DNA of 43,938 nt from positions 69,725 to 113,662 of the forward strand of contig NZ_KE386823.1 of NCBI RefSeq assembly GCF_000428945.1, read 5' to 3'. The notes under the pieces were generated by a model. The model did no database searches, was not told where the DNA came from, and worked only from the letters and a program-made list of their open reading frames with translations. Position 1 is the first letter of the stretch; each line of letters begins with the position of its first letter. Shown here piece by piece: positions 1,131 through 43,389 of this stretch. The translations under genes and the position numbers were made by a program. The stretch is from Hamadaea tsunoensis DSM 44101 (GTDB taxonomy: Bacteria > Actinomycetota > Actinomycetes > Mycobacteriales > Micromonosporaceae).

Positions 1131-1221
1131 CGCGCATCCTCCCCCGTGAGAATTGAGGAAGAATGTATCGGGGCACTCCGATATAGGCAATGGTCGACTT
1201 GTCTGCCCGCAGGCCAACCCC

Positions 1222-1293
1222 GGCGATCTTGCGCGAACGTCCCGAATTCCGCGACATTTGCGAGAAACGCCCGGACATTCGCGCAAGATCGCC
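1222..1293. repeat. Class A palindrome, copy 1
   Basis: Arms of 21 nt: GGCGATCTTGCGCGAACGTC at 1222 and its complement ending at 1293, with one G/T-type mismatch. The loop is about 30 nt. The same arm sequence occurs at 12051-12120 and 15625-15704. Here it lies between divergent genes, so it is not simply a terminator. Confidence 0.8.
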
Positions 1294-1418
1294 GAAAAGC
1301 GGGGTAGAGATCCCCGAAACCGGGCGGATCGCACGACCCGGACCGTCGGTGCATGACCGGTAGGTGTGGATCATCCATGACCGCATGGGGGACGGCGGGA
1401 AACGAGGCCCGGCGCTAC

Positions 1419-5065: not shown

Positions 5066-5218
5066 CCAACATCAGACCACCGTCCATCAGACCGCCATCG
5101 CCCCCGATATCGGACACTCGCGACAAAGTTCGAACCAGCCGAGGCGAACCGGCGCGCTTGATCCCAGAGCACTCGACGATCTTGCAATACCCGGCATCTT
5201 GCATTCGCAGACCAGCCT

Positions 5219-5325
5219 TGATCATGTCGCGCGGATATGTCGAGATCCGGCCGCCGCAACATATACGCGCGACATGATCAGCGCCCGGCGATCAACTTCG
5301 ACATATACGCGCGACACGATCAAGG
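5219..5325. repeat. D1 palindromes (TGATCATGTCGCGCG arms)
   Basis: Arms TGATCATGTCGCGCGGATAT... at 5219-5240 and the complement at 5259-5280 differ at one position of 22. A third half-copy (ACATATACGCGCGACACGAT) lies at 5301-5320. A related block is at 19279-19385. Confidence 0.75.
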
Positions 5326-5336
5326 CGGGTTTCCGC

Positions 5337-5586
5337 ATATCGGACAGTCGCGACAAAGTCCGGGCTGATCTCGACGGCGACGGGCGCCGGCTACCGAAGT
5401 ACACCCGACACCATGATCATGTAACGCCATTCCGGCAGCGGCGTGGACCTAGCCTTGATCATGTAACGCCATATCGGCGGGAGAGCGCTTCCTTGCCGAA
5501 ACAGCGCTACATGATCAAGGAGCTCGCAGCGATCATGCCGGATACGAGGGCATACTCACCCCGATTTTGTCCCGACTGTCCGATAT
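5337..5586. mobile_element. MITE-like element, copy 1: D2 hairpins between inverted B repeats
   Basis: Begins with B in forward orientation and ends with B in reverse orientation, so the 22-bp motif acts as terminal inverted repeats of a 250-bp element. Inside is the palindrome CCTTGATCATGTAACGCC ... GCGCTACATGATCAAGG at about 5455-5518. A second element with the same order and sequence is at 18783-19024. No transposase is encoded, so if mobile it is non-autonomous. No clear target-site duplication was seen. Confidence 0.55.
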
Positions 5587-5601
5587 GGACGTCAATGTGA
5601 G

Positions 5602-5753
5602 GGGTGAAACGGTGACCGGCGACGGCGACGGATGCCTCGCCCCACTCAGGTGGCAGTGGAGGCCCCCCGGGCCGGAACGGTCTCCCGCGCGAGGAGCGGA
5701 GGTGAGATCGACGAACCCGGGAAATAAAGATCTTGAAGAATTTGATCTTGATC
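5602..5753 (+). repeat. Module C, copy 1
   Basis: About 140-bp module shared with 16238-16376 (same strand) and 18483-18620 (opposite strand). It runs from GGGTGAAAC to a TTTGATCTTG end. It contains three potential hairpins: CCACT/AGTGG, GGCCC-CCC-GGGCC and CTCC-CGCGCGA-GGAG. In the other two copies the second hairpin reads GGCGC-CCC-GCGCC, a pair-preserving change. Confidence 0.8.
5632..5727 (+). CDS. Conserved 31-codon ORF inside module C, copy 1
   Basis: Starts MPRP and then reads PTQVAVEAPRAGTVSRARSG followed by GEIDEPGK and TAA. The same frame, start and stop position occur in all three full copies of module C. Changes from copy 2 are Arg2 to Pro, Thr31 to Lys, two silent changes and a different stop codon. 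Whether it is translated is unknown; there is only a weak purine-rich site (GGCGACGG) before the ATG. The alternative is a structured element whose hairpins force the sequence. No recognised domain. Confidence 0.3.
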   Translation: MPRPTQVAVEAPRAGTVSRARSGGEIDEPGK

Positions 5754-5756
5754 CCC

Positions 5757-6746
5757 CTACAGCCAGCCTTTGCGTTTGAAGGTGACGTAGAGCAGCGCGG
5801 ACAGCGCCAGCGTGACCGCCGTCGACGTCCAGAAGCCGATGTGCTGGCCGAAGCCGGGGTACGGCACGTTCTGGCCGTAGAAGCCGGTGACCGCCGTCGG
5901 GACCGCGATGATCGCCGCCCAGCTCGTCACCTGCTTCATGATCACGTTGAGGCGGTTGGAGCGGGCGTTGAGGTGGGTCTCGAAGACCGTCGTCACCATT
6001 TCGCGGAGGGAGTCGAGCCACTCGGTGACGCGCAGCGTGTGGTCGTAGACGTCCTGGAAGTACGGCTGCAGCTCGGGGTTGATCGAGGCGAGGTCCCGGC
6101 GCTGGAGGGCCAGGACGGCCTCGCGCATGGGTAGGGCGACCCGGCGCATGCGGACGAGGGATTTGCGCAGCTCGAACGTACGCTTCTGCATCTCCTTGTC
6201 GGCCGGGCGGTCCTCGAAGAGCATCTCCTCCAGGTGTTCGAGCTCGTCGTCGAGCAACTCGGCGACGCTGAGCTGGGTGTCGACCACGTAGTCGAGCAGG
6301 CCGTGGACGAGGTAGCCGACGCCGTACCGGCTGAGTTCGGGCTCGGCGTCCCAGCGGCGTACGACCTCGTCCATGTCGAAGATGTCGTCGTCGTCGCCGT
6401 GTGCGTCGGTACGCACGGTGACGAGGGCGTTGGGCACGATGAACGCGGAGACCTCGGCGAGCCGCATCCGCCCCGTACGCGAGTCCAGCGCCGTCGAGTA
6501 CGCCGACAGGAACAGGTGGGAGGCGTACCGGTCGAGTTTGGGACGCTCGTGCACCTGCAGCGCGTCCTCGACGGCCAGCTTGTGGATGCCGAGTTCCTCG
6601 CTGATGGCGTTCACGTCGTCGGTGTGCGAGGCGAGCATGTCCAGCCAGACGAGGCAGCCCGGCTGCTGGAGATGGTCGGAGATCTCGGCGACCGGGAAGT
6701 TCTCCTTCACCAGTTCGCCGTCCTTGTACAGGCGCGTACGCCCCAT
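5757..6746 (-). CDS. corA: CorA-family divalent cation transporter
   Basis: 329-residue membrane protein of the CorA/MIT family, which takes up Mg2+ (or exports Zn2+ in the ZntB branch) as a pentamer. A long cytoplasmic alpha/beta and helical domain (1-270) is followed by two C-terminal membrane helices and a basic tail (FKRKGWL). The signature loop is YGQNVPYPG with Gln at the position of the usual Met of GMN (residues 291-293), so selectivity may differ from classical Mg2+ channels. It follows rnhA by 6 bp and is probably co-transcribed with it. Confidence 0.88.
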   Translation of the reverse strand: MGRTRLYKDGELVKENFPVAEISDHLQQPGCLVWLDMLASHTDDVNAISEELGIHKLAVEDALQVHERPKLDRYASHLFLSAYSTALDSRTGRMRLAEVSAFIVPNALVTVRTDAHGDDDDIFDMDEVVRRWDAEPELSRYGVGYLVHGLLDYVVDTQLSVAELLDDELEHLEEMLFEDRPADKEMQKRTFELRKSLVRMRRVALPMREAVLALQRRDLASINPELQPYFQDVYDHTLRVTEWLDSLREMVTTVFETHLNARSNRLNVIMKQVTSWAAIIAVPTAVTGFYGQNVPYPGFGQHIGFWTSTAVTLALSALLYVTFKRKGWL

Positions 6747-6752
6747 GGTCTC

Positions 6753-7208
6753 CTACCTTCCGGCCGCGCGGGCCTCCGTCATGCCCCGGTTGGCGAGGGC
6801 GTCGGCCAGTTCATTACCCGGATCGCCGGCGTGACCCTTCACCCAGATCCACTCGATCTCGTGCTCGGCGGCGGCGGTGTCGAGGCGGCGCCACAGGTCG
6901 TCGTTCTTGACCGGCTTCTTGTCGGCCGTACGCCAGCCATTGCGCTTCCAGCCCGCAAGCCACGAGGTGATGCCGTTGCGCACGTACGAGCTGTCCGTGT
7001 GCAGGCGGACGGAAACGTTGCGGGACAGGGATTCCAGCGCCTGGATGGCGGCCATCAGCTCCATCCGGTTGTTGGTCGTGAGCCCGCCGTCGCCGCCCCA
7101 GATCTCCTTGACGTGGTCGCCCCAGCGCAGCACCGCGCCCCAGCCGCCGGGGCCGGGGTTGCCGCTGCACGCGCCGTCCGTGTAGATCTCCACGACCTGC
7201 TCTGTCAT
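6753..7208 (-). CDS. rnhA: Ribonuclease HI
   Basis: 151-residue RNase H that cleaves the RNA of RNA-DNA hybrids. The active-site residues are all visible: Asp11 in [16 protein letters not shown], Glu50 in NNRMELMA, Asp72 in HTDSSYV, His126 in [10 protein letters not shown] and Asp136 in ADALA. The length is normal for bacterial RNase HI, with the basic handle region [15 protein letters not shown] present. First gene of a probable rnhA-corA unit; the start is divergent from the SRPBCC operon. Confidence 0.96.
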
Positions 7209-7247
7209 GCCCGCGAACCTACCGGATACGCCCGGGTGGCCGGCACC

Positions 7248-7279
7248 TTGACACGGCAGATACTAAGCGCGCATACTAT
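7248..7279 (+). promoter_or_regulatory. Promoter and possible MarR operator of the SRPBCC-EVE-marR operon
   Basis: TTGACA (7248-7253), an 18-nt spacer and CATACT (7272-7277) lie just before ATG 7284, so the transcript would be nearly leaderless. The -10 is embedded in an imperfect 20-bp palindrome, ATACTAAGCGCGCATACTAT (7260-7279). The MarR protein encoded as third gene of the operon is the natural candidate to bind it. Confidence 0.55.
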
Positions 7280-7283
7280 TTTC

Positions 7284-7742
7284 ATGACACGGACGCATGC
7301 CAAGACACAGACGATCGCCACTGCGCAGATCAGCAGCGACCTTCCGGCCGAGGCCTTCTTCGAGCGCTGGGCCGACATGGCCACCTGGCAGGAGTGGAAC
7401 ACCGACACCGAGTGGGTCCGCCTCGACGGCCCGTTCCAGACCGGGGCCACCGGGGTCCTGAAGCCGAAGGGCGGCCCGAAGACGAAGTTCGTCGTCGCGG
7501 CCCTGGAGCCCGGCCGGGAGTTCACCGACGTCTCCCTGCTCGCCGGGGCGAAACTGACCTTCCGCCACCTCGTGGACCGGGCGGCCGACGGGCGTACCAC
7601 GGTGGCCGTCACGGTCTCCCTCGGCGGCCCCCTGGCCTTCTTCTGGAACACCGTGCTCGGCAAGGGCATCAAGAACGGCATCGCCGCCGACCTGACCCAC
7701 CTCGAAGCGGCGGCCCGCGCGAAGTTCCGGGCTGCGGCATGA
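7284..7742 (+). CDS. SRPBCC (START-like) family protein
   Basis: 152 residues with the helix-grip fold typical of polyketide cyclase/AHSA1-like proteins: ISSDLPAEAFFERWADMATWQEWNTDTEWVRL, then FQTGATGVLKPKGGPKTKF and a C-terminal long helix (GIAADLTHLEAAARAKF). Such proteins bind hydrophobic ligands in a deep cavity; no specific ligand can be named. First gene of an operon with an EVE-domain gene and a marR gene. Its TGA overlaps the next ATG (ATGA), implying translational coupling. Confidence 0.8.
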   Translation: MTRTHAKTQTIATAQISSDLPAEAFFERWADMATWQEWNTDTEWVRLDGPFQTGATGVLKPKGGPKTKFVVAALEPGREFTDVSLLAGAKLTFRHLVDRAADGRTTVAVTVSLGGPLAFFWNTVLGKGIKNGIAADLTHLEAAARAKFRAAA

Positions 7743-8254
7743 AGAGCTATGACATGAAGAACGGTGACATGAAGAACGGTGACATGAAGAGCGGTGGCGG
7801 CATGAGGTACTGGCTCGGCGTGGTCTGCCGCGACCACGTGCAGCTCGGAACCGCCCGCGGCATCGCCCAGCTCGGGCACGGCAAGCGCGACGGCCTCGCC
7901 CGGCTGTCGGCCGGCGACTGGCTCGTCTACTACTCGCCCCGGACCAGCCTGCGCGGCGGCGAGCCGCTCCAGGCCTTCACCGCCCTGGGCGAACTGCCCG
8001 ACGACGACATCTGGCAGGCGCACGAGGGCGACTTCCACCCGTGGCGGCGCCGCGTCGCGTACCGTGAGGACACTGTGGAGACGCCGATCCGATCCCTCGC
8101 CCTCGACCTGACCGCCGGTCCGAACTGGGGCTACCAGCTGCGGCGGGGCCTGATCACGCTGACCGAGCACGACTTCGCGACGATCAGCGCCGCGATGGCC
8201 GGGACCACGCCTGCGGTGCCGGCCGCCGTACCGGCCTCGGTCGGGGCGCGATGA
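7739..8254 (+). CDS. EVE-domain protein (UPF0310)
   Basis: EVE domain from MRYWLGVVCRDHVQLG through the GDWLVYYSPRT and LQAFTALGEL segments to NWGYQLRRGLITL. EVE domains have the PUA-like fold and bind modified bases in DNA or RNA. The coupled ATG at 7739 would add a 21-residue N-terminus made of DMKNG repeats (171 residues in all); the family usually begins at MRYW, which is ATG 7802 here (150 residues). The 15-bp tandem repeat at 7751-7795 puts several in-frame ATGs in a row. Overlaps the SRPBCC gene by ATGA and the marR gene by 4 bp. Confidence 0.85.
   Translation: MKSYDMKNGDMKNGDMKSGGGMRYWLGVVCRDHVQLGTARGIAQLGHGKRDGLARLSAGDWLVYYSPRTSLRGGEPLQAFTALGELPDDDIWQAHEGDFHPWRRRVAYREDTVETPIRSLALDLTAGPNWGYQLRRGLITLTEHDFATISAAMAGTTPAVPAAVPASVGAR
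7751..7795 (+). repeat. 15-bp tandem repeat at the EVE gene start
   Basis: Three units of GACATGAAGAACGGT, the third with one change. Each unit holds an in-frame ATG. Confidence 0.9.
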
Positions 8255-8691
8255 CCGGCCTGGCCACCGAGTTCGACACGGCCGACGAGAGCACCGGCCT
8301 GTTGCTGTGGCAGGTCACCAACCGGTGGCAGGCCGCGCAACGGGCGGCGCTCAAGCCGCTCGGCCTCACCCACGTGCAGTTCGTCCTGCTGGCGGCGCTG
8401 ACCTACCTCGGCGAGAGCGGCACCGTCACCCAGAAGGCGCTGGCCGACATGGCCGCCACCGACCCCATGATGACCTCCCAGGTCCTGCGGACGCTGGAGA
8501 GCCGCGGCCTGGTACACCGCCCGCCGCACCCCCAGGACCGCCGGGCCCGGGCCCTCGCCGTCACCGACGAGGGCCGCGACCTGGCCAACCGGGCCGTCGT
8601 CGCCGCCGAGGCATGCGATCAGGCGTTCTTCGCGGCGCTCGGGGACGACCGGGCCGGGTTCACGTCCGCGCTCCTCGCCCTGCGCTCCTGA
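8251..8691 (+). CDS. MarR-family transcriptional regulator
   Basis: 146 residues with the winged-helix fold of MarR: dimerisation helix at the N-terminus, recognition region QKALADMAATDPMMTSQVLRTLESRGLVHR and wing PPHPQDRRARALAVTDEGR. Cotranscribed with the SRPBCC and EVE genes and overlapping the latter by ATGA. It likely represses its own operon through the palindrome at 7260-7279, responding to a small ligand. The stop codon lies in a 17-bp tandem repeat. Confidence 0.92.
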   Translation: MTGLATEFDTADESTGLLLWQVTNRWQAAQRAALKPLGLTHVQFVLLAALTYLGESGTVTQKALADMAATDPMMTSQVLRTLESRGLVHRPPHPQDRRARALAVTDEGRDLANRAVVAAEACDQAFFAALGDDRAGFTSALLALRS

Positions 8692-8746
8692 ACAGACGCT
8701 GCTCCTGAACAGACGCTGCTCCTGAACAGACGCTGCTCCTGAGAGG
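8684..8746 (+). repeat. 17-bp tandem repeat spanning the marR stop codon
   Basis: Three full units of GCTCCTGAACAGACGCT and a partial fourth. The first unit contains the last Ser codon and the TGA of marR. Confidence 0.95.
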
Positions 8747-8797
8747 ACACGCCCCGCCTCCCGCGCGGCATCCACCGGCTCCACTATCGTCACGCGG

Positions 8798-9142
8798 ATG
8801 GAACGCGTACTCGGCATCGGTGGATTCTTCTTCCGCTCACGAAACCCTCAGGCGCTGGCCGAGTGGTACGAGCAGGCTCTCGGCATCAACGGCATGGCCT
8901 GGGAGCAGGAGGCCGGCCCCACGGTCTTCATGCCCTTCCCCGAAGACACCGACTACTTCGGGTCCGAGCGGCAGCAGGCCATGCTCAACTTCCGCGTACG
9001 CGACCTCGACGCCATGCTGGCCCAGCTGCGGGCGGCCGGGGCGGTGGTGTCGGACGAGATCTCCGAGGCGGATTTCGGCCGCTTCGGCCACGCGACCGAC
9101 CCCGACGGCAACCGGTTCGAGCTGTGGGAGCCGCGCGCCTGA
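8798..9142 (+). CDS. VOC-family (glyoxalase-like) protein
   Basis: 114-residue vicinal oxygen chelate protein: IGGFFFRSRNPQALAEWYEQALGI begins the first beta-alpha-beta module, and FGHATDPDGNRFELWEP ends the second. The C-terminal Glu of FELWEP is the usual metal ligand. Could be a glyoxalase or a resistance-type binding protein; the context gives no substrate. The stop lies in an 18-bp duplication that also contains the stop of the convergent DUF2000 gene. Confidence 0.85.
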   Translation: MERVLGIGGFFFRSRNPQALAEWYEQALGINGMAWEQEAGPTVFMPFPEDTDYFGSERQQAMLNFRVRDLDAMLAQLRAAGAVVSDEISEADFGRFGHATDPDGNRFELWEPRA

Positions 9143-9169
9143 GCTATCCGTCGCGCCTGAACTATCCGT
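9134..9169. repeat. 18-bp duplication across two convergent stop codons
   Basis: Unit CGCGCCTGAGCTATCCGT is followed directly by the same unit with one change. The first copy carries the VOC stop (9140-9142). The second carries the DUF2000 stop (9162-9164). Confidence 0.9.
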
Positions 9170-9572
9170 GCAGGGTCGCTCCTTTGAGGACCTTGTCGAC
9201 GGCGTTGCGCGGCCCCTCCACCACGAGGCCGACAAGGTCCAGGTCCGCGGTGCGTACGCGCTGCACCGCGGCCCGGTTGTCCTCGTCGTTCCCGGTCGCG
9301 AACAGGTCGGCGGTGAAGACGCCCATCGGCAGCTCCCGTTCCAGCGCCCGGCCGTGCGCCGTCCTCAGCAGCACGGCGTCGCCCTGGAACACGAGCACGG
9401 GCTGGCGGAACATCGGCAGGTAGACCCGGCCGTCCGCGTCGGCGTACTCCTTCCCGATCAGGTCGGGCCGGCGGGCGGCGAGGCCGCTGACGAGAAAGGC
9501 GGTCACGTTCAGCCGCTGCCAGCCGGCCAGGTCGTCGCGGAGCAGGACGGCGATCTTGTTCTCGAACCTCAT
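9162..9572 (-). CDS. DUF2000 family protein
   Basis: 136 residues matching the DUF2000 pattern: KIAVLLRDDLAGWQRLNVTA, YLPMFRQPVLVF and the C-terminal GPRNAVDKVLKGATLH. The family has a peptidyl-tRNA-hydrolase-II-like fold and no settled function. Divergent from an AraC regulator whose start is 66 bp away, an arrangement that suggests the regulator controls it. Confidence 0.85.
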   Translation of the reverse strand: MRFENKIAVLLRDDLAGWQRLNVTAFLVSGLAARRPDLIGKEYADADGRVYLPMFRQPVLVFQGDAVLLRTAHGRALERELPMGVFTADLFATGNDEDNRAAVQRVRTADLDLVGLVVEGPRNAVDKVLKGATLHG

Positions 9573-9638
9573 GGCCCCAGCGTGCCCGCGAACTGCCGGC
9601 CGGGTCTTGTACGTTTCATCCCGGGAGGAGGTCTACCC

Positions 9639-10427
9639 GTGGAGGAAGTCACGGCCTGGCGGCCGGCGGTGCCCGGCATCGCCGAGGTCTTCCACGCCCA
9701 GTTCGTGGGGCACGCGTACCCGATGCACGTCCACGAGCACTGGACGGTGCTCATCGTCGACGACGGCGCCATCCGCTACGGGCTCGACCGCGCCGAGCGC
9801 GGCGCCACCGGCGGCACGGTCACCCTCCTGCCGCCGCACGTCCCGCACGACGGCCGCGCCGCGACCCACACCGGCTTCCGCAAGCGCGTGCTCTACCTCG
9901 ACGCAGCCACGCTCGGTGAGCACCTCGTCGGCGCCGCGGTCGACGCCCCCACGCTGCCCGACCCGCTCCTGCGGCACCGCCTCCACCAGCTCCATGATCT
10001 TCTGAGTACGCGTACGCGAGAAGAACTCGAAGCCGAAACGCGGCTCGCGTTCATCACCGAGCGGCTGAGCGGGCACCTGAAGGCACGCCCGGCCGACCCG
10101 CCGGACCGGCCCGGGCGGCTCGCGGACGAGTTCCGGGCGCTCCTCGACGCGTACACGAGAGAGAATCTGACCTTGAAAGACGCGGCGCTGCGGCTGAACG
10201 CGCGCCCGGCGCAACTGGTCAGGGCGTTCCGGCGGGAGTTCGGGCTGCCGCCGCACGCCTACCTGACCGGGCGCCGCGTGGCGCTCGCGCGCGACCTGCT
10301 GCTGGCGGGCGGGCGACCGGCGGACGTGGCGCTCGCCGCGGGATTCTTCGACCAGGCCCACCTGAACAGGCACTTCACCCGTCACGTCGGCACGACACCG
10401 GCCCGGTACGCGCGCCTGTCCCGATGA
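9639..10427 (+). CDS. AraC-family regulator with N-terminal cupin
   Basis: 262 residues. The N-terminal cupin sensor contains HAYPMHVHEHWTVLIVDDG (metal/ligand-type histidines) and LLPPHVPHDGR. The C-terminal double helix-turn-helix runs from about residue 165 (LTLKDAALRLNARPAQLVRAFRREFGLPPHAYL) to ADVALAAGFFDQAHLNRHFTRHVGTTPARY. GTG 9639 is selected by the strong GGGAGGAGG 8 nt upstream; the open frame extends much further upstream without meaning. It probably regulates itself and the divergent DUF2000 gene. Confidence 0.9.
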   Translation: MEEVTAWRPAVPGIAEVFHAQFVGHAYPMHVHEHWTVLIVDDGAIRYGLDRAERGATGGTVTLLPPHVPHDGRAATHTGFRKRVLYLDAATLGEHLVGAAVDAPTLPDPLLRHRLHQLHDLLSTRTREELEAETRLAFITERLSGHLKARPADPPDRPGRLADEFRALLDAYTRENLTLKDAALRLNARPAQLVRAFRREFGLPPHAYLTGRRVALARDLLLAGGRPADVALAAGFFDQAHLNRHFTRHVGTTPARYARLSR

Positions 10428-10455
10428 TGTTGCGGGCGGTAGTCAGGATGGTCGC

Positions 10456-10827
10456 ATGGCCGACGATCTCTTCCTGCGTCTCGTGCCGATCCTGAACGTC
10501 GCGGACCTCGACACCGAGCGGCGCTTCTACGAGCTGCTCGGCCTGCGGGTGACCTACGAGGGCCCGGAGTACCCCGGGTTCCTGGCCATGGGCGACGAGC
10601 GCGCGGTGGAGTTCGGCATCCAGTCCGCCCCCGGTACGCTCGACGGCCTGACCTGGCAGTTCCAGGTGTCCGACGTGGACGAGATGCGCCGCCGCCTGGA
10701 CTCGGCCGGCATCGCCTACGAGTCGCGTACGCACTCCCCCGCGCCCGGCTGGCGGTATCGCACACTTTCGCTACGCTCGCCTAACGGCTACCGGGTGCTG
10801 CTGGAGGGCACGAACGAATGGACCTGA
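10456..10827 (+). CDS. VOC-family (glyoxalase/bleomycin resistance-like) protein
   Basis: 123 residues: VPILNVADLDTERRFYELLGL opens the first module and SPNGYRVLLEG closes the second. The last Glu of LLEG is the likely metal ligand. Ligand unknown. Not closely similar in sequence to the other VOC gene at 8798. It ends 7 bp before the DUF456 gene; the end of this gene and the start of the next share ATGGACCTGAC with 17-bp spacing. Confidence 0.82.
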   Translation: MADDLFLRLVPILNVADLDTERRFYELLGLRVTYEGPEYPGFLAMGDERAVEFGIQSAPGTLDGLTWQFQVSDVDEMRRRLDSAGIAYESRTHSPAPGWRYRTLSLRSPNGYRVLLEGTNEWT

Positions 10828-10834
10828 CCGAAGC

Positions 10835-11335
10835 ATGGACCTGACGGATCTCGACTCGACCCTGACCGTCGTCTGCGGACTGATGATCGTCGTCGGGGTC
10901 TTCGGCGTGGTCGTCCCGATGCTCCCCGGCCTGCTGCTGTGCTGGGGCGCCGTGCTGCTCTGGGCCATCCTCTCCGACGCGGGCTGGGGCCGCTGGGTCG
11001 TGCTCGCGGTGGCCACCCTCATCGGCGGCGTCGGCGTCGCGGCCAAGTACGCCTGGCCCGGGCACCGGCTCAAGCAGAGCGGCGTACCGAACCTGACGCT
11101 GTTCCTCGCCGGGGTGCTCGGCATCGTCGGCTTCTTCGTCGTGCCGGTCGTCGGCCTGCCGCTCGGCTTCGTGCTCGGCATCTTCGGGGTGGAATGGGCC
11201 CGGCAGCGGGGCGCGGGACCGGCGTGGCGCTCGACGAAGAAGGCGCTCGGCGCGGTAGGGCTGTCGATGCTCATCGAGCTGGGAGCGGCCCTGCTCATCG
11301 GCGTCACCTGGGTCGTCGGGCTGATTTCCACATGA
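10835..11335 (+). CDS. DUF456 membrane protein
   Basis: 166 residues, strongly hydrophobic, with about four or five membrane helices. It has the glycine-rich pattern of DUF456 (GVVVPMLPGLLLCWGAVLLW, then GFFVVPVVGLPLGFVLGIFGVEW). These proteins contain glycine-zipper-like segments; function unknown. Probably in one unit with the preceding VOC gene. Confidence 0.8.
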   Translation: MDLTDLDSTLTVVCGLMIVVGVFGVVVPMLPGLLLCWGAVLLWAILSDAGWGRWVVLAVATLIGGVGVAAKYAWPGHRLKQSGVPNLTLFLAGVLGIVGFFVVPVVGLPLGFVLGIFGVEWARQRGAGPAWRSTKKALGAVGLSMLIELGAALLIGVTWVVGLIST

Positions 11336-11414
11336 GAGGTTCGGCCACCTAAGGGTTCGGGCTCGGGGTGTGATGCGGGGCTCGCCCGGATGCGGCTAGG
11401 ACCGTCCCCTCACG

Positions 11415-11993: not shown

Positions 11994-12050
11994 CGCCCGC
12001 CCCCGCTCTTCTCGACGCCCCGCCGTTCTCGACGCCCCCCGCTCTTCTCG

Positions 12051-12120
12051 ACGATCTTGCGCGAATGTCCGGGCTTTCTCCGCGAAGCGGACGAAATTCG
12101 GGGCATTCGCGCAAGATCGT
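12051..12120. repeat. Class A palindrome, copy 2
   Basis: Arms ACGATCTTGCGCGAATGTCC and complement (one mismatch in 20) around a 30-nt loop. Lies between convergent genes and could end transcription from both sides. Confidence 0.8.
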
Positions 12121-12190
12121 TGGGATTCTCGGCGCAGCGGCGGGGGCAGCGGGGCGGCGGATGGGGCCGCGGGAGCGGGGCGGGCGGGGG

Positions 12191-13117: not shown

Positions 13118-13150
13118 GAGATCCACTCCAGCAGCGTACAAGAAATGGCG

Positions 13151-13180
13151 TTGTCGGATCCCCGTCGCTCGTCCTATCTT
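13151..13180 (+). promoter_or_regulatory. Promoter of small transcription unit
   Basis: TTGTCG (13151-13156), 18-nt spacer, TATCTT (13175-13180), reading rightward. Expected transcript start is near 13187. Confidence 0.5.
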
Positions 13181-13223
13181 GATCCTGCGTCATCGAACGG
13201 ATCCCGGAAAGGCAGGCACAGAC

Positions 13224-13292
13224 GTGAAGCGACTATTGACCAGCGAGCCCTGTGCCGGAGCCGGCCGGGCTCGGGAGGATGCCCGACACTAG
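13224..13292 (+). CDS. 22-residue ORF in the small transcript
   Basis: Starts with GTG and encodes a basic peptide beginning VKRLLTSEPCAGAG, ending at TAG. GGAAAGG lies 11 nt before the start. It could be a leader or a free microprotein, or be chance. Codons inside coincide with the hairpin arms. Confidence 0.25.
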   Translation: MKRLLTSEPCAGAGRAREDARH

Positions 13293-13310
13293 GGCGTACG
13301 ACTTCCCCGC

Positions 13311-13350
13311 CGCCGATGGACGCCACGTTCCACAGGCGGTTTCTTTTTCT
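13311..13350 (+). terminator. Intrinsic terminator
   Basis: CCGCC (13311-13315) pairs with GGCGG (13336-13340), with an inner TGG/CCA stem, followed at once by TTTCTTTTTC. U-rich terminators are uncommon in such GC-rich genomes. Confidence 0.65.
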
Positions 13351-13386
13351 CTGAAATAACTCTCTACTGTGGATTTACTCAGCTGC

Positions 13387-13458
13387 CCGGAACGAGGGAG
13401 ACGGCAACCCGTGCGCTTTGGGAGCGCGAGACACCCCGTTCGACTCGGGGGTTCCGGA
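13387..13458 (+). tRNA. tRNA-Pro(TGG)-like gene, noncanonical
   Basis: Folds as a cloverleaf. Acceptor CCGGAAC/GTTCCGG with C1:G72 and A73, the bacterial proline identity pair and discriminator. D-arm of 3 bp with loop AGACGGCAA (GG present). Anticodon stem TGCGC/GCGCG with loop TTTGGGA, so the anticodon is TGG (13419-13421) followed by G37. Variable loop AGACA, T-arm CCCCG-TTCGACT-CGGGG. CCA is not encoded. Odd points: positions 8-9 are GA instead of the near-universal U8, and the acceptor differs from the usual CGGGG type. It may be a specialised, pseudo- or mobile-element tRNA. Confidence 0.45.
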
Positions 13459-13558
13459 CCGCGGCGCCCGCGGGCCGACGCCAGCGCGGCGGCGGCCGGT
13501 CGGGGGTGGGCGTCGTGCGATACGCCGTGACGGGCGCGAGTCCGTCACGGCACCGCCA
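13459..13558. other. GC-rich hairpin segment between the two tRNA-like sequences
   Basis: Contains GGCGT/ACGCC around 13509-13526 and a 7-bp hairpin GTGACGG ... CCGTCAC at 13527-13548 whose loop GCGCGAGT recalls a T-loop. It is flanked by GGGGGTG (13502-13508) and CACCGCC (13551-13557), which pair with one mismatch. It may be a decayed third tRNA-like unit; I cannot fold it as a proper cloverleaf. Confidence 0.25.
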
Positions 13559-13630
13559 GGACGACGCACAGGTGTGCAGCGCTGTCTTGCAGACAGCGCG
13601 GGCGCGGTTCGATACCGCGGTCGTCCACCA
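13559..13630 (+). tRNA. tRNA-like sequence with minimal D-arm, anticodon TGC
   Basis: Acceptor GGACGAC/GTCGTCC, discriminator A and an encoded CCA. The T-arm CGCGG-TTCGATA-CCGCG is normal in shape. Anticodon stem GCTGT/ACAGC (extendable to 7 bp) has loop CTTGCAG, so the anticodon would be TGC (Ala). The D region is only 15 nt, best drawn as GCAC-AGGT-GTGC, and there is no G3:U70 pair, so alanyl-tRNA synthetase should not recognise it. Probably a tRNA-like RNA or a degenerate gene rather than a working elongator tRNA. Confidence 0.35.
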
Positions 13631-13639
13631 GCCCAGCCG

Positions 13640-13700
13640 GCCCAGCCGGCCTCGTCATTTCAGCCGGCTCAGTCCGCTCAGCCGGCTCAGCTCGCCGTGT
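13640..13700. repeat. 9-bp tandem repeats at the HTH-gene stop codon
   Basis: On the minus strand, CTGAGCCGG, CTGAGCGGA and CTGAGCCGG follow one another starting at the TGA of the gene, then GGCCGGCTG repeats continue. Confidence 0.75.
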
Positions 13701-15288
13701 CCGGACCGCCGGTCCGCGGGATGCGGCGCAGCCAGCAGGCGGCCGTCGCGCGTACGGTGTGGGGCACGTCCGGGCGGTCGCGGATGTCGGCGAGCAGGCC
13801 GCCGTGGTGCTCGGTGCCGATGCCGAAGGTGATCCCGTGCAGGACGGAACCGTTGGTGGTGGCCGGATTCTGCTGCCAGGCGGCGACCTGGACGGTGAGG
13901 ATCTGGCGCCAGGTCTGCTCCGGGAAACGCCCGCCGCAGAACGGCGTCGCCCACGCCGCCGCCTGGCGTACCGTCTCGCTGGCGCCGCGCTGGGTGAGCA
14001 GGTCGTGGATCAGCGGCCGATGGGTGTCCACCCCCAGCAGCGTGAGTACGCGCAGCGCGGTGGCCAGCGGATACGTGCCGCGCTGGCGGACGAGATCGAC
14101 CCGGACCTCGTCGAGGAGGATCTGGGTGAACGGGATCCGGTAGGGCGTGGCCCCGATGAGCATCGCCGCGGCGAAGCTGCGGTCCGGGTCCGGCAGGAAC
14201 AGCGCCTCCTCGACCAGGACGGCCAGCATCACGTCGACGCCGCCGGTGTGCGGAGCGAGCCGGCTGTGCACGGCGGCCGCGATCCGGGCGCTGGTCGTCT
14301 GGGCTGTGGCCAGCCCGGCCAGGCGGCGGCTGGTCCAGACGTGGTGGGCCAGCGAGGCGGCGGGCAGCCGGCGGGAGACGGCACCCGCGTAACTCGGCTG
14401 CCGGGCGAGCCGCCGGCCCGCCTCGACGGCGAGGGCGAGATCGCCCGTGCTGGTCGCCGGATCGTTCATCAGCGCGGCGAGGGACGCCATCAGCCGGACG
14501 GACTCCTGATCGTCGAAGTGCAGCCGGCCGGCCTTGTACACGGCGGCCTGCAGTGCGCCCTCCAGCGCCCGCTCCCCCGCCGGGTTCTCCAGCTGCCGCA
14601 GCACGTACTGGTTGGCGACCCGGTCCCGGGCATCGCCCAGCAGCGACAGCGGCTCGACGATCAGCAGCGACGTGGGATCGTCGGCGTGCGCGATGCAGCG
14701 GGCCACCGCGTGCGGTCCCGCGGCGGGATGGCGGATCAGCCGGCTCATCGCGGTCTGCCGCTGCAGCCACTCGACGCCGACCGCCTCGACCATCTCGTCG
14801 AGGAGCCGGTCGGCGACCTCGTGCCAGAGCCGCGGCGGGTACAGCTCCAGTTCGGGACGCCCGGCGACGATCTCGGCCAGCGCGCTCCAGTCCGCCCCGG
14901 TCAGCGCGTCCGCCGCCGTGACCCGGTCCAGCAGGTGGTACAGCCGGTCCCGATCGTGATCGTGGCCGGTGTCCTGCCGCGTACGCAGCGATGCGCCGTC
15001 GGCCGCCGAATGCATCATCGCGTCGGCGACCGCCACCAGCGACTCCGGCGCCAGCCCGAGCAGGCCCTCGTATCGGCGTACCGCGCCCCGGGCCGGCAGC
15101 AGCTCGCCGGTCTCCCAGCGGGTGATCTGCGACGGCGCGAGCGAAACGCTCGTCCGGGTGGGAAAAGCACGCGCGAACGTACGGCCCGAGTGCAGCGCCT
15201 CGTCCGGGCCGTGCATCCGGTTCACCCGCAACAACCAGCCGACGTGGCGGGTCGCGGTCGCCATGCTCACGACGACAGAGTGCGCCAT
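13687..15288 (-). CDS. Large XRE-type HTH protein with helical-repeat C-terminus
   Basis: 533 residues. Near the N-terminus (about 40-85) is a helix-turn-helix of the XRE type: SVSLAPSQITRWETGELLPARGAVRRYEGLLGL. The remaining 440 residues are almost all helical with repeated Ala/Leu patterns, HEAT- or TPR-like, ending WATPFCGGRFPEQTWRQILTVQVAAWQQNP. Probably a DNA-binding regulator with a protein- or ligand-binding helical domain; target unknown. ATG 15288 has GGAG 8 nt upstream; longer starts extend into sequence with no ribosome site. Confidence 0.75.
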   Translation of the reverse strand: MAHSVVVSMATATRHVGWLLRVNRMHGPDEALHSGRTFARAFPTRTSVSLAPSQITRWETGELLPARGAVRRYEGLLGLAPESLVAVADAMMHSAADGASLRTRQDTGHDHDRDRLYHLLDRVTAADALTGADWSALAEIVAGRPELELYPPRLWHEVADRLLDEMVEAVGVEWLQRQTAMSRLIRHPAAGPHAVARCIAHADDPTSLLIVEPLSLLGDARDRVANQYVLRQLENPAGERALEGALQAAVYKAGRLHFDDQESVRLMASLAALMNDPATSTGDLALAVEAGRRLARQPSYAGAVSRRLPAASLAHHVWTSRRLAGLATAQTTSARIAAAVHSRLAPHTGGVDVMLAVLVEEALFLPDPDRSFAAAMLIGATPYRIPFTQILLDEVRVDLVRQRGTYPLATALRVLTLLGVDTHRPLIHDLLTQRGASETVRQAAAWATPFCGGRFPEQTWRQILTVQVAAWQQNPATTNGSVLHGITFGIGTEHHGGLLADIRDRPDVPHTVRATAACWLRRIPRTGGPDTAS

Positions 15289-15548
15289 CCATCGATCTCC
15301 GGTCAACGCCGTAACGGTCCGGAACGACCGGCCCCCCGTTCGCGGATTCGTTACAGGGTTCGTTGCAGGGGAAGACACTTACGCAACGGCCGCCGAACGC
15401 CCGGCCGAGGTGGCACAGACTGCGTACGGGCGCACCGGGGGCTTGCCCACGGCCCGGGTATCGGGGCGGCGGAGGGTCGCGTGCGGCTCCGGCGAACGGG
15501 GGTAGCCGGCACCGTCGGGGATGTGCGACGACCGCCGCCCCATCCGTA

Positions 15549-15610
15549 AGATCAAGATCTTTTTAGTCACCGTTTCCCCCTTCACCCCAGCCTTTGTCCC
15601 GACTGTCCGA
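15549..15610 (-). repeat. Internally deleted module C plus B
   Basis: Has both ends of the C-B unit as seen at 18483-18653 (AAGATCAAGATCT ... GTCACCGTTTCCCCCTTCAC ... CTTTGTCCCGACTGTCCGA) but lacks the central ORF and hairpins. Confidence 0.65.
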
Positions 15611-15624
15611 CTTGCACCCGAGAT

Positions 15625-15704
15625 GGTCGACGATCTTGCGCGAATGCCTCGAATTTCGTCCGGTGCACCCGGAATGCCCGGACATTCCTGCAAGATCGTC
15701 GACC
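15625..15704. repeat. Class A palindrome, copy 3
   Basis: Arms of 22 nt beginning GGTCGACGATCTTGC, two mismatches, loop of about 36 nt. Located inside repeat island 2. Confidence 0.8.
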
Positions 15705-15804
15705 AAGATGAAGATCGGGGCCACCGTCCAACCCTGGCCGACCCTGGCCGATTCTGACTTTGTCGCGACTGTCCGATATGGGTGCTGGGGCGGCGGTCGG
15801 CGGG

Positions 15805-15952
15805 GTGATCGTTTACGGCTGTGGTGTGGAAACGGCCACCCGATGCATGATCGTTTACGGTTCTCGAGCGCGCTGACCGGCTTCCGCTACACCTGACGCG
15901 TAGACGATCGTGCAGTTCGAGCCGAAACTACGCCTCAGCCGTAAACGATCAC
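15805..15952. repeat. Palindrome E1
   Basis: Perfect 17-bp arms GTGATCGTTTACGGCTG (15805-15821) and complement (15936-15952). A nested pair GCATGATCGTTTACG/CGTAGACGATCGTGC lies inside. Confidence 0.8.
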
Positions 15953-16030
15953 GAAACAGGAGCCGGTGTCCGCATGGCGGAAGATCGTTCCCGCATCCCG
16001 GGCCGCCGGGGATGACTGGACCGCTTGGAC

Positions 16031-16136
16031 ATGATCCACCGCGGCTGAGATGTAAGAACATATCCCTCGCCCATGATCCATAGCGGTGGAGATGCAGGAA
16101 ATCGGCCTATAGCTACATCTCAGCCGTAATGGATCG
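16031..16136. repeat. Palindrome E2
   Basis: Arms ATGATCCACCGCGGCTGAGA... and TACATCTCAGCCGTAATGGA... share CGGCTGAGATGTA exactly. A further half site ATGATCCATAGCGG occurs inside. Confidence 0.65.
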
Positions 16137-16237
16137 AGAGCACAGGCCCCGAAACTACATCGGAACCGCGAACGATCATCGCCGGACCCGACGGCCGAGC
16201 TACAGATCGGACAGTCGCGACAAAGGCCGGTGCGAAG

Positions 16238-16376
16238 GGTGAAACAGCGACCGAACGACGGTGAAAGATGCGTCGCCCCACTCAGGTGGCAGTGGAGGCG
16301 CCCCGCGCCGGAACGGTCTCCCGCGCGAGGAGCGGAGGTGAGATCGACGAACCCGGGACATGAATTTGATCTTGAA
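16238..16376 (+). repeat. Module C, copy 2
   Basis: Same module as at 5602 and 18483, preceded by B forward at 16204. It ends with TTTGATCTTG a few bp before the nadE stop codon on the other strand. Confidence 0.82.
16268..16363 (+). CDS. Conserved 31-codon ORF inside module C, copy 2
   Basis: ATG to TGA, MRR followed by PTQVAVEAPRAGTVSRARSG and GEIDEPGT. GGTGAAAG precedes the ATG. Same frame and length as the ORFs at 5632 and 18588 (minus). Function unknown. Confidence 0.3.
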   Translation: MRRPTQVAVEAPRAGTVSRARSGGEIDEPGT

Positions 16377-16383
16377 TATGGCC

Positions 16384-18417
16384 TTAGAGATCGGACATCC
16401 GAGCAAGATCCCTCAGCCACGCGTCTGCCGATGAGTCCGACGGCGCCCGCCAGTCGCCGCGCGGTGACAGCGAGCCGCCGTGCGAGACCTTGGGGCCGTT
16501 GGGCAGGGCGGACCGCTTGAACTGCGCGAACCCGAAGAAGCGGCGGCAGAAGTAGTCGAGCCAGTGCCGGATCTCCGCCAGCGTGTACGCCTTCCGCTTC
16601 GCGGCCGGGAAGTTGGTAGGCCACGCCCCCGCTTCGGCGTCCCGCCAGGCGTGCCAGGCGAGGAAGGCGATCTTCGTCGGACGGAAGCCGTAGCGCAGGG
16701 TGTAGAAGAGGGTGAAGTCGTGCAGCGAGTAGGGGCCGATCTTCGACTCGGTGGACTGCATCTCCTCGCCGGGGACGAGTTCGGGGCTGATCTCGGTGTC
16801 GAGGATGGCCTCCAGGGTCGCGCTCGTCTCGGCGTCGAACTGGCCGATGCTGACGACCCAGCGGATGAGGTGCTGGATGAGCGTCTTCGGTACGCCCGCG
16901 TTGACGTTGTAGTGGCTCATCTGGTCGCCGACGCCGTACGTGCACCAGCCGAGGGCCAGTTCGGACAGGTCGCCGGTGCCGAGCACGATGCCGCCGCGCT
17001 GGTTGGCGAGCCGGAACAGGTAGTCGTAGCGCAGGCCGGCCTGGACGTTCTCGAAGGTGACGTCGTAGACGGGCTCGCCGTCGGCGAACGGGTGGCCCAT
17101 CTCGGCGAGCATCAGGCGGGCCGTCGGGGTGATGTCGAGTTCGGCGGCGGTGACGCCCAGGGCGGCCATCAGCTTGTGCGCGTTGTCCCTGGTGTGGTCG
17201 CTGGTCGCGAAGCCGGGCATGGTGAACGCCAGGATGTCGCTGCGCGGCCGGCCCGCCCGGTCCATCGCGCGCGCCGCGACGATGAGGGCGTGGGTCGAGT
17301 CCAGGCCGCCGGAGACGCCGATGACGACCTTCGGGCCGCCGATCGCGCCGAGCCGCTGCTGCAGGCCCGCGACCTGGATGTTGTACGCCTCATAGCAGTC
17401 CTGGGCGAGCCGGGCGGGATCGGCGGGCACGAACGGGAAGCGTTCGACACGGCGGCGCAGGCCGAGGTCGGTGGCGGGCGGGTCGAGCCGGAACCGCACC
17501 TCGCGATAGCCGTCCGTACGCGCCGCGTGCGCCCGCCGGTTCTCGTCGAACGTGCCCATCCGGGCGCGGTCCTGGCGCAGCAGGTCGAGGTCGACGTCGG
17601 CGATCGCGTACTGGTCCTCGGCGGGGAAGCGCTCGGTCTCGGCGAGCAGCACGCCGCTCTCGTAGATCATCGTCTGGCCGTCCCAGGACAGGTCGGTCGT
17701 CGACTCCCCCGCACCGGCCGCCGCGAACACGTACGCGGCCAGGCACCGCGCCGACGCCGACCGGCACAGCAGCCGCCGGTCCTCGGCCCGCCCGACGGTG
17801 ATCGGGCTGCCCGAGAGGTTGGCGAGCACGGTCGCCCCCGCGAGGGCCGCCTCCGTGCTCGGCGGGATCGGCACCCACATGTCCTCGCAGATCTCGGCGT
17901 ACAGCACGAGGCCGGGGACGTCGTCGGCGGCGAAGAGCAGGTCGACGCCGAACGGGACCTGCGTACCCGCGATCGTGATCGTTCCGCCGCGCTCGTCCGG
18001 GCCGGCCGCCAGCTGCCGCGGCTCGTAGAACTCCCGGTAGTTCGGCAGGTACGACTTCGGTGCGACGCCCAGGATCCGGCCGCGGTGCACGACGACGGCA
18101 CAGTTGTAGACGCGGTTGCGGTGCCGCAGCGGCGCGCCGATCACCAACACCGTCAGCAGATCGGCGGAGCCGGCGACGACGGTGGCGAGGGCCGCCGCCA
18201 CGTCGTCGAGCACGGCGTCCTGCAGGAGAAGATCCTCGATGGAGTACCCGCACAAGCCCAGCTCAGGGAAGACGGCCACGGCCACGCCCTCGCCGGAACA
18301 ATGGCGCGCCTGCCGGAGGACGGTCTCCGCGTTGACGGCCGGGTCGGCGACGGCGGTGTGGCCGGTGACGGCGGCCACACGAGCGAATCCGTGCTGGTAG
18401 ATCGAACGGAAGTTCAC
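16384..18417 (-). CDS. nadE: NAD+ synthetase, glutamine-dependent
   Basis: 677-residue two-domain enzyme that makes NAD+ from nicotinate adenine dinucleotide, ATP and glutamine. The N-terminal nitrilase-type glutaminase has the catalytic Glu52 ([10 protein letters not shown]), Lys121 ([13 protein letters not shown]) and Cys177 (EICEDMW). The C-terminal synthetase has the ATP-binding SGGLDS (369-374) and [13 protein letters not shown]. The length is normal. The last residues (DLARMSDL) read into sequence resembling repeat B (GATCGGACA), so the original stop may have been replaced by repeat sequence. The gene is flanked by inverted copies of module C and B. Confidence 0.97.
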
Positions 18418-18482
18418 GGCACCATCATGTCAGATCGCACGGTCCGGGTCGTAGTCAAGATCCTTAGCAAAGATCCTTTTTG

Positions 18483-18620
18483 AAGATCAATTTCATGTCC
18501 CAGGTTCGTCGATCTCACCTCCGCTCCTCGCGCGGGAGACCGTTCCGGCGCGGGGCGCCTCCACTGCCAGGTGAGTGGGGCGACGCATCCTTCGCCGCGG
18601 CCTGGTCACGGTTTCACCCT
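18483..18620 (-). repeat. Module C, copy 3 (inverted)
   Basis: Minus-strand copy of the module, followed on its outer side by B reverse at 18631. Together with copy 2 it forms a large inverted repeat around nadE. Confidence 0.82.
18493..18588 (-). CDS. Conserved 31-codon ORF inside module C, copy 3
   Basis: ATG to TGA with GGCGAAGG just upstream, a fair ribosome site. It differs from copy 2 only at QV to HL (residues 6-7) and one silent Pro codon. See copies at 5632 and 16268. Function unknown. Confidence 0.32.
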   Translation of the reverse strand: MRRPTHLAVEAPRAGTVSRARSGGEIDEPGT

Positions 18621-18715
18621 TCACCCCGACCTTTGTCGCGACTGTCCGATATGGGCGGTGCATCGTTGGCCGGTGAGGGGCGACCGCTCGCAGCTTTTCG
18701 GGCCGCCACAGCGCT

Positions 18716-18800
18716 CGGATGGTCACAGCTTCGGGCCGGCGCAGCTCTCGGACAGCCACGGCTTTCGGGCAGTCACAGTTTCAGACAGTCGCGACAAAGG
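18716..18800. repeat. Degenerate tandem array of B-like units
   Basis: About five 16-17-bp units such as TCGGATGGTCACAGCT, TCGGACAGCCACGGCTT and TCGGGCAGTCACAGTT. They end in a true B core, CAGACAGTCGCGACAAAG. Confidence 0.6.
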
Positions 18801-19024
18801 CCGGGGGAGACCTCGCCGGCGGCGTATCTGCTCCGGGAGCACGTCCGACACCTTGATCGTGTAGCGCCATTCCGGCAATGGGAGCGGTCCAGCCTTGATC
18901 ATGTAACGCCATATCGGCGGGAGAGCGCTTCCTTGCCGGAATAGCGCTACATGATCAAGGAAATGGTCGCGATCATGCCGGTCCGCGGGCTTGCCGGCCC
19001 GGACTTTGTCCCGACTGTCCGATA
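18783..19024. mobile_element. MITE-like element, copy 2
   Basis: Same arrangement as 5337-5586: B forward, spacer, palindrome CCTTGATCATGTAACGCC ... GCGCTACATGATCAAGG (about 18893-18960), a GCGATCATGCCGG segment and B reverse. The left B is worn (CAGACAGTCGCGACAAAG). Confidence 0.55.
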
Positions 19025-19101
19025 CAGCGTCGCCTCGCCGGCAGCCCGGTCCGCGATATGAGAACGATCTTCCATCAGGTGAACGGGGATCACCGATTTC
19101 T

Positions 19102-19247
19102 TGATCGTTGACGAATGAGGTGTGATTCCGGCCTGATCTGCATGATCAATGACGGGTCAGGTGCAGCCATGAGCGGTCAACGCGCTCCAGAACCGTCATC
19201 GATCATGCAACTGGCGGCCGTATTCACACCTCAGCCGTCAACGATCG
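19102..19247. repeat. Palindrome E3
   Basis: Arms of about 23 nt: GATCGTTGACGAATGAGGTG at 19103 and its near-complement ending at 19247, about three mismatches. A GCATGATCAATGACGG half site is nested inside. Confidence 0.7.
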
Positions 19248-19278
19248 CCCCGCCGGCCCGACTCTCGCTTCGCCGACC

Positions 19279-19385
19279 ATGATCATGTCGCACGCATATG
19301 TCGAAGTTGATCGCCGAGCCCTGATCATGTAGCGCAAATATGTTGTTGCGGGCGGATTTCGACAGATATGCGTTACATGATCAAG
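19279..19385. repeat. D1-type palindromes, second block
   Basis: ATGATCATGTCGCACGCATA, TGATCATGTAGCGCAAATAT and the complement ATATGCGTTACATGATCAAG follow one another. Related to 5219-5325. Confidence 0.7.
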
Positions 19386-19475
19386 GCCGGTGCACGAAGA
19401 CCGCGGCCCACGCATCCTCAAGCGCTACCCATATCGGACAGTCGAGACAAAGACCCGAGGCGGAAGGCCAGCAGG

Positions 19476-19507
19476 TTCCGCTATAACGGAATTCCGCTAT
19501 AGTGGAA
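19476..19507 (+). promoter_or_regulatory. Tandem operator and -10 box of the XRE-cupin/decarboxylase operon
   Basis: Two adjacent 16-bp palindromes, TTCCGCTATAACGGAA (19476-19491) and TTCCGCTATAGTGGAA (19492-19507). The second contains TATAGT (19498-19503), a -10 box 7 bp before GTG 19511. Binding of the XRE protein here would block its own promoter. Confidence 0.65.
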
Positions 19508-19510
19508 CGC

Positions 19511-24586: not shown

Positions 24587-24641
24587 CCCGCCCCCAGCTC
24601 CCCCTTGCGCCCACCCCTCCCCCTGCGCCAAGCGCCAAGCG

Positions 24642-24724: not shown

Positions 24725-24749
24725 GGGTGCTCTTTCGGGGTGGGCGGGG

Positions 24750-43302: not shown

Positions 43303-43389
43303 GCGAATCCGGCAATCCTCGGCCCCTGCCGCCGTGGAGTGGTCGGCGGTGATCGAGTGCCCGGAATCTGTAGTAGTTGATCTCCATCG

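Follow-up and report, generated by a model that had tools for sequence, protein, structure and literature searches.

Layered palindromic composites in gene-free gaps of the Hamadaea tsunoensis genome

The gene-free gaps of the Hamadaea tsunoensis DSM 44101 genome, examined here as 9.48 Mb in 68 contigs, contain many layered palindromic composites, which are non-coding and make up one large family. Three members form islands in the stretch of 43,938 nucleotides that we call the window (69725-113662 of contig C29), and each is built from a short motif B, a longer module C and long palindromes tipped with GATC. An earlier note, made from the letters of the window, had described these islands as mosaics of shared modules with about ten copies of B between successive palindrome blocks. 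This description holds: ten B are present, C occurs once in each island, and GATC-tipped palindromes are found in all three. The islands are best read as interspersed palindromic repeats of a variant form, and we infer that their nesting arose when palindromic elements inserted within or next to older ones.

When 3 mismatches to the B core, CGGACAGTCGCGACAAAG, are allowed, the window contains 10 matches, against an expectation of 0.05 derived from 100 dinucleotide shuffles that never gave more than one. All ten matches fall inside the three islands, where B is the separator between blocks, and the palindromes fill most of the remaining island DNA. The module order is B+ E B+ D B- C+ in island 1, B- G B- F F2 B+ C+ in island 2, and C- B- (133 bp, unassigned) B+ D B- F E B+ in island 3.

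The earlier note would have been refuted by motifs restricted to the window, but they are spread over the genome. Genome-wide, B occurs 335 times with up to 2 mismatches, and the 32 most conserved bases of the C core occur 218 times with up to 3, while the reversed control patterns gave no match in either search. We annotated 937 kb with nucleotide profiles, namely 400 kb of contiguous unselected DNA (the start of contig 1, 70.5% GC), 40 stretches picked for holding B, and the window, and tabulated the neighbours of each module. From outside to inside, a typical composite has C with its AT-rich GATC tail outward, the 18-bp B with its CGG side inward and at least one GATC-tipped hairpin as payload (G, F/F2, D, E or J/K), after which an inverted B and an inverted C close the other side. 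It thus reads C- B- payload B+ C+, and either side or both may at times carry an extra G hairpin together with a second B. The C tail points outward in 65 of 68 clustered copies, five C being solitary, and the CGG side of B faces inward in 107 cases, outward in 13 and lies near the centre in 14, in DNA mostly selected for B. The unselected 400 kb alone gave 16 inward, 2 outward and 3 central B, with the C tail outward in 12 of 12 copies and four C solitary. Among 45 islands with at least two B, 35 have a minus-strand B leftmost and a plus-strand B rightmost. The claim that the modules occur in differing orders is right for the window islands, but free reordering is not supported for the genome, of which the 937 kb shows a nested polar arrangement.

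Another module lies within 200 bp of 137 of the 138 B in the 937 kb. With at most one mismatch, B occurs 289 times in its own genome and not at all in three congeners; two of the other 296 genomes of the family hold a single match each, which is the chance level given four single matches of the reversed control. We read B as the terminal border of payload units rather than as an independent repeat, because it is almost always beside other modules and was seen only in its own genome. The five bases inside B vary with the payload: beside G they are CAAGT-like in 27 of 30 cases and never CATAT-like, beside F they are CATAT-like in 25 of 41 and CAAGT-like in 11, and beside F2 the corresponding counts are 17 of 29 and 3. 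For 14 contigs of known length, at least 13 of the 28 ends have a B or C no more than 600 bp away (contigs C1, C3, C5, C6, C7, C9, C10, C11, C12 and C16), as expected if some copies are similar enough to break the assembly, so that the copy numbers may be underestimates.

In the unselected 400 kb the palindromes amount to 37 long hairpins, compared with 0 for a single Markov-2 control sequence, and 31 of the 37 have GATC near the outer tip (expected fraction ~0.20). They belong to several families (G, H, F, D/E and J) with differing bodies, and CGTC stands beside GATC in the G hairpins only. H exists in this genome in two middle variants, which are apparently mixed between arms. In the congener G061, 400 kb held nine hairpins, seven of them GATC-tipped and five H-like (TGGATCAGGG...CGAATCTTGG), and no exact short motif of B, C, F, G, D, J or the H of H. 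tsunoensis. The window H and a G061 relative (L183:6554-6625) have TGGATCAGGG and CGAATCTTGG in common and differ in their outer arms and middle. G088, from another genus, has six hairpins in 260 kb, four GATC-tipped; 15 Streptomyces loci gave four, none GATC-tipped, and no hairpin at all was found in 132 kb from presumed relatives (six named loci; Actinoplanes, Paractinoplanes, Winogradskya and Dactylosporangium). On these counts the GATC tip is a possible, not an established, rule for the family. When folded as DNA, a 0.8-kb composite chosen for its regularity (L215) forms one hairpin (-314.7 kcal/mol, z -26.7), compared with z -8.95 for island 2 and z -1.92 for a coding stretch of similar length; these were the three sequences folded, with 20 shuffles each.

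Module C, at the edge of the composites, is RNA-like. In an alignment of 61 near-full-length own copies out of 73 C matches, the core measures 115-118 or 127-128 nt, and its most variable part is a hairpin in which pairing is kept. RNAalifold predicts 24 pairs, five of them changed on both sides and mostly within this one hypervariable hairpin; the compensatory changes involve 29 sequences at pair 55-77 and 8 at pair 57-75, and many other pairs are invariant and hence uninformative. In a family-wide alignment of 69 rows, the 68 distinct sequences vary with compensation in the same hairpin (pair 15-41: GC in 41, CG in 22). The predicted folding energy is -44.7 on the strand that ends in the tail and -40.5 on the other, against a column-shuffle mean of -37.5 (sd 3.6), a z of only -2.0. 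The earlier note had taken C for a coding-like module. Since the core lengths break the frame, we rejected a coding role, and together with the compensatory changes they indicate that C is non-coding.

The first 40 nt of the 61 tails have 40.4% GC, with GATC in 59 and GATCTTGA in 39, whereas 58 controls 200 nt further out have 70.9% GC and GATC in 16. In the other genus with such tails examined, the signal is far weaker (57.6% versus 68.3% GC; GATC in 30 of 49 versus 23 of 49). Rfam gave no match at the gathering score in the window; none of four matches (E up to 10) in window positions 15400-19600 falls on C, and neither of two matches up to E 1 at 11 loci does. A SAM (S-adenosylmethionine) riboswitch (RF00162) lies at L253:2703-2841, about 1.1 kb from a C relative. 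The C core also forms a tandem array with a period of 81 bases at L283:9888-10290 in G052, and the tail of the C relative at L256:1411-1500 extends as a long array of TTGATCTTGACC-like units.

C has relatives in other genera. A model built from copies of the H. tsunoensis genome (R1) gave weak matches elsewhere, in 6 of 250 genomes including its own, while a model of three foreign and seven own cores (R2) matched 42 of 354 family genomes and 11 of 44 genera at E <= 0.01, own included, where about 3-4 chance matches are expected. The best E is below 1e-5 in seven genera, own included; genus g4 contributes four matches of E 0.002-0.007, no more than chance would give. The H. tsunoensis copies have diverged from the consensus, CGCGGACCTGGCAG-hairpin-CCGGTCTCCGGCGGGAGCGACGGTCGTGCCCACGACGGACCCGGGAC, and the relatives in other genera are dispersed and mostly single copies. 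Among the candidates scored, the congeners G039, G080 and G061 gave at least three, at least one and no C match, respectively. Model R3 matched the H. tsunoensis genome and none of 393 others drawn from the class at E <= 0.001, a search whose sensitivity is not established because R3 was never run on other known holders of C, and R2 found none at 80 named NAD-synthase loci, mostly from Streptomyces and mycobacteria. In one genus (g19), an orthologous gap of G100, G109 and G072 holds outward-tailed C pairs without B, so that this arrangement is not peculiar to the H. tsunoensis genome.

In g19, whose species are ~82-91% identical in longer DNA matches, C is present in some species and absent from others at two orthologous sites, a pattern in which gain is not separable from loss. 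Six g19 genomes reached the limit of 13 scored C candidates, which makes their copy numbers lower bounds. Site 1 is the 3' end of a gene that we take, from its C-terminus, to be ahcY; among the five genomes compared there, C is present in G052, G109, G088 and G100 and absent in G072. The flanks in G052 are AGTAACGGTAGTG before C and AGTACCGGTAGTG after it, and in G088 CGGTAGTGCT stands on both sides, a probable 13-bp direct repeat at the filled site. Site 2 is occupied by C in G100, G018 and G072 but not in G052, G088 or G109. Direct repeats around C are not general: after exclusion of eight partial, tandem or weak matches from the 57 R2 matches, 4 of 49 copies score at least 10 where ~1.5 would be expected, and the ahcY site accounts for two of these.

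In the H. tsunoensis genome itself, 19 composites that start and end in C were compared. Their ends can be aligned in inverted orientation in 18 of the 19, at 68-99% identity over 69-196 bp, and the best 12 composite pairs, among 8 of the 19, are 79-92% identical over 0.62-0.98 kb.

The earlier note had likened the islands to the bacterial interspersed mosaic elements (BIMEs) of enterobacteria and had proposed a search for a transposase that cuts at B, RAYT-like (REP-associated tyrosine transposase; REP, repetitive extragenic palindrome) or other. The likeness stands as to form, in that the repeats are intergenic and dispersed and have fixed separators, but not as to the RAYT: the Y1/RAYT profile PF01797 detects nothing in this genome, which is 99.5% complete, and is positive in 5 of 14 controls, and on this ground we reject a RAYT as the mover. 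Island 2 had no match in plasmid and phage collections, and IMG/VR contained no exact copy of the B core, of a pattern from the C core or of a foreign C motif; entries close to this genome may be left out of these collections. With no plasmid, phage or viral-contig match, we rejected a phage or plasmid origin. No known transposon family was matched in the searches made, membership in one such family being the other finding that would have refuted the earlier note.

We favour, with a probability of about 0.5, the reading that the layers are separate non-autonomous palindromic elements grown into nests and moved in trans by an enzyme other than one of the Y1/RAYT type. The layers would be, or derive from, elements like REPINs (REP doublets forming hairpins) or miniature inverted-repeat transposable elements (MITEs), and new elements would prefer gene-free gaps, beside or mid-way in existing palindromes. 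Such landing would build the nest and put B between blocks, and an effect on host transcription (termination, mRNA 3' ends), if any, would be secondary. The landing step is modelled on the REPIN clusters of PMC3116915 and on the insertion sequences within REPs of PMC1525189, as far as the parts of these papers used here describe them.

Several observations weigh against this reading. Target duplication is not general at the 19 composites: one scores at least 10 (0.07 expected), within the tail repeat unit, and 2 of 19 have a direct repeat scoring at least 8 against 3 expected. Base complementarity just outside the hairpins exceeds that of shuffles modestly (H 4.22 versus 3.83 and G 4.51 versus 4.23 of 6), which lends weak support to landing inside older palindromes. 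The left and right C arms are independent of payload orientation (p 0.72, exact label swap, 9 composites), which implies either shuffling or inversion of the payload between inverted arms and does not support a composite moving as one fixed unit. C arms of the same island are 86.2% alike versus 81.9% for random pairs (15 pairs, p ~0.005, by resampling of non-independent pairs), and the closest relative of an arm is its own-island partner in only 4 of 30 cases, so that an origin of both arms by recent inverted duplication is not supported by arm similarity. B polarity in the window (5 inward, 4 outward, 1 central) is less regular than in the genome at large. Finally, no autonomous element or transposase was located, other transposase and reverse-transcriptase families not having been searched for; the longest closed open reading frame in 66 sampled islands is 238 aa, and no gene-bearing copy with the same ends was noticed in the 937 kb sampled, without a search aimed at one.

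The same data bear on other explanations. One is a classical MITE family: C plus B, or B alone, would form the inverted ends of a single DDE transposon, with its autonomous copy lost or missed in sampling and the payloads as internal leftovers. The alignable inverted ends and the shared ends with differing interiors in short, non-coding units argue for it; the lack of a general target duplication, the C arms that do not follow the payload side, and the solitary C copies without a partner, both here and in other genera, argue against it, and we regard this account as unlikely. The elements might instead be structures of use to the host (terminators, mRNA 3'-end protection, DNA topology) spread by gene conversion rather than by mobility. 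By a home-made gene caller that misses genes, H in the unselected 400 kb shuns divergent gaps (1 of 23, versus 39 of 145 among all gaps of at least 80 bp) and J is convergent in 5 of 5 cases, and the compensatory changes in C, as well as tails that abut stop codons in several rows as judged by eye, fit such a use. However, island 3 itself lies in a divergent gap, the same 400 kb has 6 of its 20 B, 3 of its 15 C and 4 of its 19 G in such gaps, B was not found in congeners, and close species differ in the presence of C. We consider this explanation quite improbable.

More speculative is the idea that a single actinobacterial family harbours, in C, mobile structured RNA of a class of its own and new, with a tail of GATC units, copied into gene 3' ends probably via an RNA or single-strand intermediate, and that the lineage-specific GATC palindromes belong to the same machinery and build onion-like composites without a Y1 transposase; this would be a long shot. 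A further account, in which C is a retrotransposed structured RNA like a short interspersed nuclear element and the palindromes are hitch-hikers, could draw on the RNA-like core with its 3' tail of GATCTTGA units, which has 40% GC compared with 70.5% for the genome, and on the probable direct repeat at the ahcY site, where four species carry C and one does not. We think it very unlikely, as direct repeats are not general and tails in the other genus are only mildly AT-rich. Least probable is a BIME/REPIN system mobilised by a RAYT (a Y1 HUH transposase): the inverted doublets with variable middles recall it, and REPIN clusters are known from insertion into or beside existing ones (PMC3116915, in the part considered here), but PF01797 has no match here and the shared tag is GATC, not GTAG.

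Table 1. Modules and palindromes annotated in the window (positions count from its first letter).
Feature	Position	Strand	Remark
Island 1	5111..5745	.	convergent gap between MFS gene (+) and CorA gene (-); module annotation, neighbour Pfam
Island 2	15566..16383	.	between NAD synthase 3' end and next same-strand gene (tandem); single-strand DNA fold z -8.95
Island 3	18475..19452	.	divergent gap between NAD synthase (-) and HTH-cupin gene (+)
B	5111..5128	+	1 mismatch
B	5341..5358	+	exact
B	5565..5582	-	2 mismatches
B	15592..15609	-	1 mismatch; CAAGT-type inner flank, facing G
B	15758..15775	-	exact; CATAT-type inner flank, facing F
B	16208..16225	+	exact
B	18631..18648	-	exact
B	18782..18799	+	1 mismatch
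B	19004..19021	-	1 mismatch
B	19435..19452	+	1 mismatch
Module C	~5602..5745	+	structured-RNA-like core, then GATC-rich tail
Module C	~16237..16376	+	module annotation, C alignment
Module C	~18484..18619	-	tail facing NAD synthase start
Palindrome E (TTGATCATGTCGCGC...)	5214..5324	-	ends taken from module gaps
Palindrome D (TTGATCATGTAACGCC...)	5412..5525	+	ends taken from module gaps
Palindrome G (GATCTTGCGCGAATG...)	15627..15702	+	repeat search, module annotation
Nested palindrome F (GTGATCGTTTACGGC...)	15805..15952	.	module annotation
Palindrome F2	16031..16138	+	start approximate
Palindrome D	18852..18965	+	module annotation
Nested palindrome F	19103..19246	-	module annotation
Palindrome E	19278..19388	+	start approximate
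Palindrome G, stand-alone, outside islands	1214..1299	.	hairpin comparison
Palindrome G, stand-alone	12046..12125	.	hairpin comparison
Palindrome H (GATCCCGTTTGGATCAGGG...), stand-alone	24610..24732	.	hairpin comparison
Palindromes K and J, adjacent, without B or C	43332..43609	.	module annotation

The features of the window are collected in Table 1. Ten window genes, including the island neighbours, are ordinary: MFS, CorA, RNase H, a pyridoxal-phosphate (PLP) enzyme, NAD synthase, a helix-turn-helix (HTH)-cupin protein, a PLP decarboxylase, a FAD hydroxylase and two without a Pfam match. For the NAD synthase gene between islands 2 and 3 (16384-18417), three congeners gave no long DNA match among the 40 candidates scored in each, and the named sequences closest to it are from Streptomyces, at up to 85%; it was possibly acquired, judging from these comparisons. 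No gap orthologous to the island gaps was found among the NAD-synthase relatives scanned, mainly Streptomyces, and no empty site of a window island could be read in the congeners, whose DNA matches are ~66-97% identical when short and 68-84% when longer. Short tandem repeats lie at 8684-8742 (17-base unit) and 19716-19784 (15-base unit), the latter coding for a Gln-Asp-Gly-rich linker of the HTH-cupin gene.

The earlier note knew of no description of such repeats, and we found none of these repeats or of C in the open-access literature, among the best-ranked titles and with subscription journals mostly outside the search. In bacteria, interspersed palindromes usually go together with RAYT transposases. 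This genome has hundreds of them, in several families and with a nesting rule, and no Y1 transposase was found in it. It thereby offers a test case for how palindromic repeats arise and spread without such an enzyme. C, in turn, is an RNA-like element common to at least six other genera (E below 1e-5) without a matching Rfam family, and relatives whose close species differ by occupied sites offer a way to study it.

Enterobacterial BIMEs consist of extragenic palindromic units in alternating orientation with fixed linker motifs, present in hundreds of copies. Many short extragenic palindromes in ordered clusters with fixed separators were found here as well; the units of H. tsunoensis differ in being larger and nested with dyad symmetry, with an RNA-like module at the edges, and in a genome where no RAYT was found. 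MITEs are short, non-coding, multicopy elements with inverted repeat ends and varied interiors. The composites resemble them in their terminal inverted repeats (18 of 19) and differ in that target duplication is not general and no transposase partner was found. We place the islands in neither the REPIN/BIME nor the MITE class, because a defining feature of each was looked for and not found.

REPINs, as presented in the part of PMC3116915 considered here, are hairpin-forming inverted doublets with conserved outer parts, variable middles and compensatory changes, and they form clusters via insertion into or beside others. A RAYT is central there and was not found here, where GATC tips and several unrelated, coexisting hairpin families are seen, and the B and C layers have no counterpart in REPINs as that text describes them. 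Tetranucleotide-tagged palindrome families are common to this genome and to the REPs of PMC3733652, the main text of which, as far as considered, distinguishes GTAG- and CGTC-tagged REPs, describes the CGTC REPs as having no dedicated transposase, notes that terminal inverted repeats also form families, and has no mention of actino-, Streptomyces, Mycobacterium or GATC. The tag here is GATC at the outer tip rather than a GTAG or CGTC foot, with CGTC beside it in G alone. The insertion sequences that target REPs, in the part of PMC1525189 drawn on here, differ in being full insertion sequences, and they provide a precedent for palindromes as insertion targets.

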